This document shows, piece by piece, positions 219 to 1,916 of a stretch of 64,000 nucleotides of DNA. This DNA comes from Hyphobacterium sp. CCMP332 (lineage in GTDB: Bacteria > Pseudomonadota > Alphaproteobacteria > Caulobacterales > Maricaulaceae). The translations under genes were made by a program, and so were the position numbers. Every line of letters begins with the position of its first letter. The stretch's first letter is position 1. The notes beneath the pieces were generated by a model that saw only the letters and a list, made by a program, of their open reading frames with translations, searched no databases and was not told where the DNA came from. The DNA lies in contig NZ_CP058669.1 of NCBI RefSeq assembly GCF_014323565.1, positions 124,001-188,000 on the forward strand, given 5' to 3'.

Positions 219-1916
219 ATGCGGGTTCTTTCTATTGCAATTCTGGCATTATCGATTCTGACGTCGGGCGCGCTGGCCGCCGACGAGGCCGGTCAGATGT
301 CTGCCAGCGATATTGGTCAGTGGTTGCGCATCGTGCAGGACAAGCCGGGCATGACACCGGCGACCGATATTCCCGCCGATTTCCAGGGCGATGATAGTTG
401 CCGTTGGGCCAACGACAATGAATGCGATGACCCGCGGTATGGCACCGGAGCCTGTGAAATAAACACTGACCATTCTGATTGTTGGCGCATTCTCACCGAT
501 GCCGAAGACGATAGCTGCCAGTGGGCCAATGACGGCGAGTGTGATGAGCCAAGCCTCGGAACCGGCGCATGCGTCCAGGGAACCGACCGGACCGACTGCG
601 CCGACGTGGCCTTCCTTCGGTTCCAGACAGACAGTTGTGCAACGGCTTTTGACGATATTTGCCAGGAGGAAGCGCTAGGCGGCGATGGCAGCTGTGCGCC
701 GCGAACCGACCGCGCGGACTGCCTCGGACGCGAACGCCCGATGACCCTGCAAGGCCATCATTTCGGCAATGACGACCGGGTCTCCCTGAATACCTCGATT
801 TTCCCTTGGGCCGTTGTCGGCCAGATCACAATGGATCAGGGTGGTGCCTGTACGGCGACGCTCATCGGCCCTGATATTCTGGTCACCGCCGCACATTGCA
901 TTCTCCATGAGGGCCGTATTGATGCCCGCGGCGAGTTCGAAACGGGGACCATGCTCGACGGTGATACGCCCACAAGCCAGATCATCGATTATTACTTGCC
1001 GCCCGAGCAAACGCGGAGTGGAACGTCGACCGCGGGCGATAGCGGCCCGCATGACTGGGCGCTCTTGCGGATCAATGATCGCCTCGGCGATCAGCTCGGC
1101 TGGGTGGGGATTGCCTCCTATGAGGCTGATATCTGGCGCGACGGGCAAGCCCCGTCGCTGGAGACTGTCGGCCTGTTCCAGCTGGCCGCACAGGCCGTCG
1201 CCATAGATGACGCCGCGCCGGAACAGGATGCTGATGAAGCCCCGGCATTTGCGGCAACGGGATGGGTGCAGGCGAATTTGCCGCTCGTCCTGATGGGGGC
1301 GGGCCTTTTGATTTTTGTGATTGGCATTGCCGTCGGCAACAAGGCGGTGCGGATCATCCTCGGCCTGTCGGGATTGGCCATGCTGATCAGCGGCGGATAT
1401 CTTTTCCTGATGCGGCCGGCTGCAGCCAGTTCAACCGATATCGGCACCTTGCACGAGGCGACCGGCAATGGCGGCAAAACGCCGCCCGCCGCAGCAATAC
1501 CGGCGGTATTACCTGCCCCATTGCAGGCCTATGGCGAGGCCATCCTCTACCAGGCCGGTTATAGCTATGACACGGGCGACAATCTGTCCGGCAATATCGG
1601 CTGCGTGGTGGAGACGGTTTATGAAAACAACACGATGGCCCACCAGTGTGACACCGTTCAGGGAGATTCCGGCTCCCCCCTGTTTGTGGAACGGGACAGG
1701 CAATTCTATGTCATTGCCACGGACTCGCGTTATGGAGAAAGCGAAGCAGGGCCGACCCGAAACATCGCGACCCGCTCGGACGCCTGGGTTCCGTTCTATG
1801 AGGCTTTCGCCGCGGGCGAGATCGGTGAAGGCAGCCCCCGTCCACGTGGCCCCGGAAAGCCGGGCGAAGGGCAAGACCCGGATGCGCCGGTGATAGGCAA
1901 GGCAGAGGACCAGTAA
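219..1916 (+). CDS. Membrane-anchored trypsin-like serine protease with Cys-rich repeats
   Basis: The start at 219 is chosen because it opens a signal peptide (MRVLSIAILALSILTSGALA, cleavage before ADE); the frame extends upstream to 84 without signal-like sequence. Residues about 58-168 hold three Cys-rich repeats of the form DDSCxWANDxECDxP...C..TD..DC, reminiscent of LDL-receptor class A modules. An S1-type protease domain follows, with TAAHC (His226), HDWALL (Asp279) and QGDSGSP (Ser484). His-Asp spacing is normal, but about 205 residues separate Asp and Ser, roughly twice the usual distance. The excess contains an acidic linker and two hydrophobic segments (about residues 350-402) joined by a short loop carrying K and R. 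Both catalytic halves would therefore lie in the periplasm with a membrane hairpin between them. The substrate is unknown. It is followed 2 bases later by a YhhN gene. Confidence 0.88.
   Translation: MRVLSIAILALSILTSGALAADEAGQMSASDIGQWLRIVQDKPGMTPATDIPADFQGDDSCRWANDNECDDPRYGTGACEINTDHSDCWRILTDAEDDSCQWANDGECDEPSLGTGACVQGTDRTDCADVAFLRFQTDSCATAFDDICQEEALGGDGSCAPRTDRADCLGRERPMTLQGHHFGNDDRVSLNTSIFPWAVVGQITMDQGGACTATLIGPDILVTAAHCILHEGRIDARGEFETGTMLDGDTPTSQIIDYYLPPEQTRSGTSTAGDSGPHDWALLRINDRLGDQLGWVGIASYEADIWRDGQAPSLETVGLFQLAAQAVAIDDAAPEQDADEAPAFAATGWVQANLPLVLMGAGLLIFVIGIAVGNKAVRIILGLSGLAMLISGGYLFLMRPAAASSTDIGTLHEATGNGGKTPPAAAIPAVLPAPLQAYGEAILYQAGYSYDTGDNLSGNIGCVVETVYENNTMAHQCDTVQGDSGSPLFVERDRQFYVIATDSRYGESEAGPTRNIATRSDAWVPFYEAFAAGEIGEGSPRPRGPGKPGEGQDPDAPVIGKAEDQ

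Follow-up and report, generated by a model that had tools for sequence, protein, structure and literature searches.

Our analysis supports, as the probable reading, a model in which an exported, periplasm-facing protease of the S1 fold in Hyphobacterium sp. CCMP332 has been turned into a membrane-anchored enzyme by an insertion of about 128 residues between its two beta-barrels. The gene lies at 219..1916 on the + strand of the 64,000-nucleotide window, the whole stretch of DNA analysed here, and encodes 565 amino acids in an open and intact frame with no stop or frameshift. In the proposed mechanism, a signal peptide would export the N-terminal half, a hairpin of two predicted transmembrane helices would insert into the inner membrane, leaving its short basic loop (K375 and R378) in the cytoplasm, and export of the C-terminal half would follow, placing both barrels in the periplasm. 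The protease would then be tethered to the periplasmic face of the membrane on flexible arms and might cut substrates near the membrane, probably after Arg or Lys, a preference suggested by the Asp at position 189 (placed by profile alignment to enteropeptidase).

The protein has a layout that can be followed from its N terminus. An in-frame ATG is also present upstream, at 84; the homology of relatives starts from the ATG at 219, with homologues aligning from residue 1. Residues 1–20 (219..278, +) make up a predicted Sec signal peptide, with the cleavage site placed by eye, a hydrophobic peak of 2.22 over residues 3–21 and a helix at residues 2–15 in the AlphaFold2 (AF2) model. Three repeats of four cysteines each follow at 399..482 (C61, C69, C79, C88), 516..599 (C100, C108, C118, C127) and 636..722 (C140, C148, C159, C168), all on the + strand, the third being the sole repeat present in the hairpin paralogues described below. 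The sequence-only reading had called them LDL-A-like, a label that we do not retain: LDL-A domains have six cysteines, whereas these repeats hold 12 in total at residues 61–168 and gave no Pfam LDL-A match at E ≤ 1. The N-terminal barrel of the S1 fold (residues 180–299; 756..1115, +), which superposes on known structures from residue 180, is recognised by Pfam Trypsin (residues 195–303, E 5.3e-12, above its cut-off) and carries His226 (codon 894–896, in TAAHC) and Asp279 (codon 1053–1055, in HDWALL); the best Pfam matches, Trypsin and Trypsin_2 (residues 211–300), both precede the interruption. The inter-barrel linker region with the insertion (residues 300–441; 1116..1541, +) contains predicted transmembrane helix 1 (residues 345–371; 1251..1331, +) and helix 2 (residues 375–397; 1341..1409, +), both from hydropathy and the AF2 model, and the C-terminal barrel (residues 442–535; 1542..1823, +) holds Ser484 (codon 1668–1670, in GDSGSP) and Asp478, which is position 189 of the S1 pocket. 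A tail rich in Pro and Gly ends the protein. These are the catalytic residues claimed earlier from the sequence, and the other elements of that claim were likewise borne out: an Asp–Ser gap of 205 residues, an acidic linker (10 D/E and 1 K/R in residues 300–344) and two hydrophobic segments between Asp279 and Ser484, with Kyte–Doolittle peaks of 2.66 (residues 354–372) and 2.02 (residues 379–397), helix 2 being the weaker of the two. The loop between the AF2 helices is VGN(K), with K375 and R378 at the loop.

Judged by sequence comparison, this gene encodes an ordinary exported protease in which the linker between the two barrels has taken up about 128 extra residues: the two halves lie close together in the relatives, and the hairpin-less homologues have a far shorter Asp–Ser spacing. 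A search of 137 family genomes gave matches in 53 at E ≤ 0.001, own genome included; two of these (G032 and G034) matched a short stretch of the protease only, and in all 50 other genomes that matched both halves the halves were at most 54 nt apart (rows read by eye). The insert is missing from 7 of 7 other genomes of the genus, and the named relatives with matches include Hyphobacterium, Maricaulis, Oceanicaulis, Hyphomonadaceae, Brevundimonas, Pararhodobacter and Octadecabacter, among others. The CCMP332 protease was aligned with 73 of 80 reference stretches to give 74 rows; the seven left out, L032, which is cut by a contig end, and L067, L069, L070, L071, L074 and L075, which have long N-terminal parts, show the hairpin-less His–Ser spacing too (130–131). 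Asp and Ser are separated by 71–78 residues in 68 of the rows, by 127 in five and by 205 in the CCMP332 protease, so that the gap of 90–100 residues earlier taken as usual for S1 proteases does not describe the relatives in this family. The H/D/S triad, in order, and Asp189 are kept in 74 of 74 rows, and the Asp–Ser gap of the 68 hairpin-less rows has no hydrophobic segment (maximum 0.89).

The hairpin-less orthologues, for example that of Hyphobacterium indicum (L036/L091), share with the CCMP332 protease an N terminus resembling a signal peptide, the four-Cys repeats, the S1 domain with its triad, the tail and the locus, but have an Asp–Ser spacing of 77, as in most relatives, in place of 205. 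By gene order, the CCMP332 protease is the orthologue of the H. indicum gene, because its neighbours are those of H. indicum: it is flanked by a PhzF-like gene on one side and by YhhN, DUF481 and sigma-factor genes on the other, an order shared with H. indicum G024, with neighbour identities of 77, 87, 80 and 96% (the sigma factor being named by eye). In both CCMP332 and H. indicum, the PhzF-like gene (upstream of the window in CCMP332, at L092:4739-5569) lies 5' of the protease and the YhhN-family gene (1919–2563) directly 3' of it. The protease is the single match in its own genome, which also holds three other Trypsin-family genes. Wider samples, in which 5–6 candidates per genome were scored and misses are therefore possible, gave matches at E ≤ 1e-25 in 7 of 385 genomes of the class, own included, and in 1 of 299 genomes of the phylum, CCMP332's own; in the class sample, the six genomes besides CCMP332 contribute seven loci, all with a His–Ser spacing of 128–132 and no hydrophobic stretch. 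The exact insert is known from one genome.

Support for the idea that the two halves still make one enzyme comes from the predicted structure. The AF2 model of the CCMP332 protease, built on the 74-row alignment, has a mean pLDDT of 76.0, with values per block of ten residues of 88–96 in the repeats (61–170), 84–98 in the N-terminal barrel, except for 67 and 71 at 261–280 (the stretch with Asp279), 80–96 in the C-terminal barrel (441–540) and 70–78 in the hairpin (351–390), falling below 50 in the hairpin arms at 330–344 and 398–437. By VIA-align, residues 180–533 of the model, spanning the insert, superpose on Bacillus intermedius glutamyl endopeptidase (1p3c), the best fold match, with Z 27.5 and 2.1 A over 205 residues, and the second match is E. 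coli YdgD (7uxg), with Z 26.0 and 3.1 A over 226 residues; Foldseek places the same two on top, at rmsd 3.3 A (1p3c) and 15.8 A (7uxg). In the AF2 model, then, the two halves form one ordinary double-barrel S1 protease across the insert, as the sequence-only reading had proposed to check by structure prediction. Since both barrels superpose on known proteases across the insert, the triad most likely forms while the hairpin loops out. The further proposal, that the active site assembles only around the hairpin, is not supported: 68 hairpin-less homologues have the same triad, and the hairpin is carried on low-confidence arms. Because these arms are probably flexible, we suggest that the barrels probably assemble without help from the hairpin.

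Hydropathy, charge and the AF2 model point to the hairpin as a probable inner-membrane anchor of the enzyme, and its predicted function is likely that of a tether. A cytoplasmic position for the loop that carries K375 and R378 would follow the positive-inside rule. In the S1 fold, the linker that joins the barrels is located away from the active-site cleft, and the cleft could therefore face the periplasm with the hairpin in the membrane.

A hairpin at this site is not confined to CCMP332. A second gene copy occurs in 5 of the 137 family genomes, G080, G086 (Oceanicaulis sp. BBD 1991-10), G091, G092 and G095, and the same five were returned from an order sample of 398 genomes (5–6 candidates scored per genome, so that misses are possible). 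In each, no more than about 1.5 kb separates this paralogue from the ordinary copy, which has the same orientation. The paralogue shows the order His–Asp–hairpin–Ser that the earlier reading suggested searching for, with a shorter hairpin in the same inter-barrel linker. At these five loci (L086–L090), a PhzF-like gene is followed directly by the paralogue on the same strand. The paralogues resemble the CCMP332 protease in having a two-helix hairpin in this linker, the triad and Asp189, and differ from it in having one Cys repeat, no C-terminal tail, an Asp–Ser spacing of 127, short arms and an ordinary copy kept nearby. Their model has a mean pLDDT of 88.2, with helices at 207–228 and 233–258, and is again matched in VIA first by 1p3c (Z 27.1) and next by YdgD. 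An invariant DNRPLRRD stands ahead of the hairpin in all five; helix 1 thus follows a stretch that is basic as well, a poor fit to a simple positive-inside pattern. At position 213, 69 of the 74 rows (CCMP332 and the 68 hairpin-less rows) have Asp and the five paralogues have V, A or I, which suggests altered specificity in the latter.

Because the hairpins of the CCMP332 protease and of the paralogues are not recognisably homologous, they were likely, though not provably, gained separately, which is also the simpler account. The five paralogues form one clade (support 100/100) and their hairpins match one another at 11–35 SD over shuffles, whereas the CCMP332 hairpin reaches 2.4 (p 0.024, uncorrected), 1.5, 0.8, 0.3 and -1.15 SD against the five, and the whole insert 3.2 (p 0.009), 2.0 (p 0.052), 1.3, 0.3 and 0.3 SD (p values again uncorrected). 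A common origin of both hairpins, by a shared ancestor, by recombination between copies or by replacement from an unsampled lineage, would account for the same linker, the same two-helix layout and the one hairpin pair of five that rises above shuffles, with a second at 1.5 SD, and an AU test does not reject CCMP332 and the paralogues as one clade (p 0.197). We nevertheless regard it as unlikely: the other three of the five hairpin comparisons are at noise, the linker between the same columns (299 to 443) is 144 residues long in CCMP332 and 66 in the paralogues, helices included, and the CCMP332 protease agrees with the ordinary copy in its three repeats, its C-terminal tail and its locus. Moreover, the free tree joins the CCMP332 row to a row that is hairpin-less and also long-branched, L112 (99/74), nor does the AU test reject a grouping of CCMP332 with the four same-genus rows nearest to it (p 0.481). 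We also considered convergent changes in the two hairpin lineages, a signal that proved weak. Of 18 CCMP332 departures at conserved columns, 14 coincide with the 31 columns at which the paralogues differ as well (expected 6.0). The hairpin-less control L112, however, overlaps likewise, with 7 of 7 departures on these columns (expected 2.3), so that the shared columns are just the changeable ones.

The gene has evolved fast in CCMP332. No end branch in the tree is longer than that of the CCMP332 row (0.79; the median is 0.069), and this row differs at 18 of the 93 conserved columns, compared with at most 7 in any of the 56 hairpin-less rows by which the columns were defined, a definition that favours those rows. 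Relative to G024 (H. indicum), dN is 0.36 in the N-terminal and 0.39 in the C-terminal barrel, 0.13 in repeats 1–2, 0.15 in repeat 3 and 0.13 in the tail, and 0.03–0.17 in the four neighbouring genes. Between sister species the values are far smaller: G024 and G026 differ by 0.06 and 0.01 in the barrels and 0.01 in repeats 1–2, G024 and G029 by 0.09 and 0.07 in the barrels and 0.01 in repeats 1–2 (0.014 and 0.006 for the repeats of the two pairs). G024 and the more distant G025 differ by 0.20 and 0.25 in the barrels and 0.13 in repeats 1–2. YhhN is 87.1% identical between CCMP332 and G024 and 85.9% between G024 and G026, whereas the N-barrel stretch is 57.0% identical in the first pair and 89.1% in the second. 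By these comparisons, the whole gene is fast in the CCMP332 lineage, the catalytic domain most so in absolute terms, and the neighbours are not. A speed-up confined to the catalytic domain was considered and dropped, since the repeats and tail are also far above sister-species dN; their dN is near that of the neighbours (0.13 vs 0.03–0.17). The N-barrel dS relative to G024 is 1.40, like that of repeats 1–2 (1.33) and near that of the neighbours (0.56–1.28). Import of a foreign piece is therefore less likely than faster protein change, though still conceivable given the saturation of dS in the C-terminal barrel and repeat 3.

This change, much faster than in the sister species, suggests a shift of substrate or of constraint, and altered activity or decay is therefore possible. 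A decaying or non-proteolytic version of the enzyme, in which relaxed constraint or repurposing affected the whole gene and the insertion was part of that, would fit the fast change across the whole gene, which makes this reading slightly likelier at the expense of the main one, as well as the high dN of the catalytic domain beside slower neighbours, the long branch and the many changed conserved columns. We judge it unlikely, because the triad, GDSGSP, Asp189 and the four catalytic-domain cysteines are kept, the frame has no stop or frameshift, the N-barrel dN/dS relative to G024 is 0.26 and so still below 1, and the AF2 model is well folded.

With a tethered protease as the preferred reading, a regulatory hairpin has a smaller place. 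In such a scheme, the state of the membrane would alter the packing of the barrels and switch activity, as in a stress sensor or sheddase; the hairpin is joined to both barrels, and the arms of the paralogues are short (66 residues between the two columns) and confidently modelled, making coupling conceivable in the paralogue. The CCMP332 arms, by contrast, are long and of low confidence, favouring a loose tether, and no substrate or partner is known; we find regulation by the hairpin quite unlikely, and a sensing or shedding role is speculation. Equally unlikely is the bolder idea that a linker hairpin is a repeatable route to a membrane-embedded S1 protease, with the barrels coupled through the bilayer and the membrane gating catalysis, and that a single bacterial family has followed this route two or more times, in one case losing the soluble form and in another through tandem duplication accompanied by a change in the S1 pocket.

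The weakest alternative, an assembly or sequencing artefact in which a foreign piece of a membrane protein was joined into the gene, could appeal to an insert found in one genome only, of a species represented by that single genome, but is highly improbable, because the insert is in frame at both ends and of native codon use as a whole, the genome is a single contig and the insert has no other protein match in it and, beyond noise, no homologue in the 137 family genomes. The earlier reading had named a frameshift or assembly join, together with a lack of any homologue carrying the hairpin, as a refutation; the frame runs through both insert ends without a shift or stop. The genome is 2,690,927 bases long and 99.63% complete. 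Residues 299–442 score 0.164 for native codon use in frame, compared with -0.055 and -0.091 in the other frames and 0.143 and 0.137 in the flanks, and GC3 is 0.71 in the insert region and 0.66 and 0.69 in the flanks; the sub-stretch 399–442 alone shows no preference for its own frame (0.014 vs 0.035 in one other), and all parts of the gene are low relative to native 144-codon chunks (mean 0.24, SD 0.07). Searches for a source of the insert gave no other protein match in its own genome, where DNA matches covered no more than 41 query bases (40 of 57 candidates scored), no homologue beyond noise in the 137 family genomes (63 with short pieces at E ≤ 1, best non-self E 0.009) and no match of the 142-residue insert stretch in Pfam or PHROGs. 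Its other reading frames gave one sub-threshold TilS match in Pfam (E 0.24), direct repeats around its ends are limited to imperfect copies of 13–15 nt, and, as to a phage origin, one scan of viral_contigs with the alignment of hairpin paralogues returned no relative.

Known systems place the tethered protease among familiar enzymes. Among solved structures, YdgD matches best by sequence (profile E 4.2e-38); it shares the FFGxDDR motif and is 26% identical, with no insertion in the aligned chain. The glutamyl endopeptidase 1p3c, first in both VIA lists, and staphylococcal V8/Esp (Z 22.7–23.2) are fold matches and, unlike the CCMP332 protease, have no hairpin; moreover, Glu-specific enzymes have His at position 213, which is absent from the CCMP332 protease family, with its Asp at 189 and mostly Asp at 213. 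DegS, MarP and the type II transmembrane serine proteases would work alike as proteases tethered to the membrane, but carry the anchor N-terminal to the catalytic domain and not inside it, and in the membrane-bound trypsin-fold proteases known to us the anchor lies outside the catalytic domain. Our searches of the open-licence PMC literature returned no S1 domain with a transmembrane hairpin between its barrels. What is predicted to be new is therefore an S1 protease with its anchor placed inside the catalytic domain, in the inter-barrel linker, a site that can accept a long insert without damage to the active site. Together with the hairpin-less enzyme that a sister species carries at this locus, it provides a natural before/after pair, which makes it directly testable how a soluble enzyme becomes a membrane enzyme and whether the hairpin acts as a tether only or in control as well.

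Finally, we note two observations on protein architecture in the wider set. The Octadecabacter relatives have longer protease open reading frames (about 620–710 residues) with no hairpin, and in four of their stretches (L067, L069, L070 and L071) a separate open reading frame of 163–189 residues, matching the Cys repeats, lies directly 5' of the protease frame. The four-Cys repeat, which has no Pfam match in the CCMP332 protease, seems to occur outside this protease family, because the N-terminal part or repeats alone match in a Deltaproteobacteria MAG (L077, CCMP332 residues 57–168), in Devosia naphthalenivorans (L079, residues 1–145) and in Halomonas beimenensis (L085, residues 57–92).
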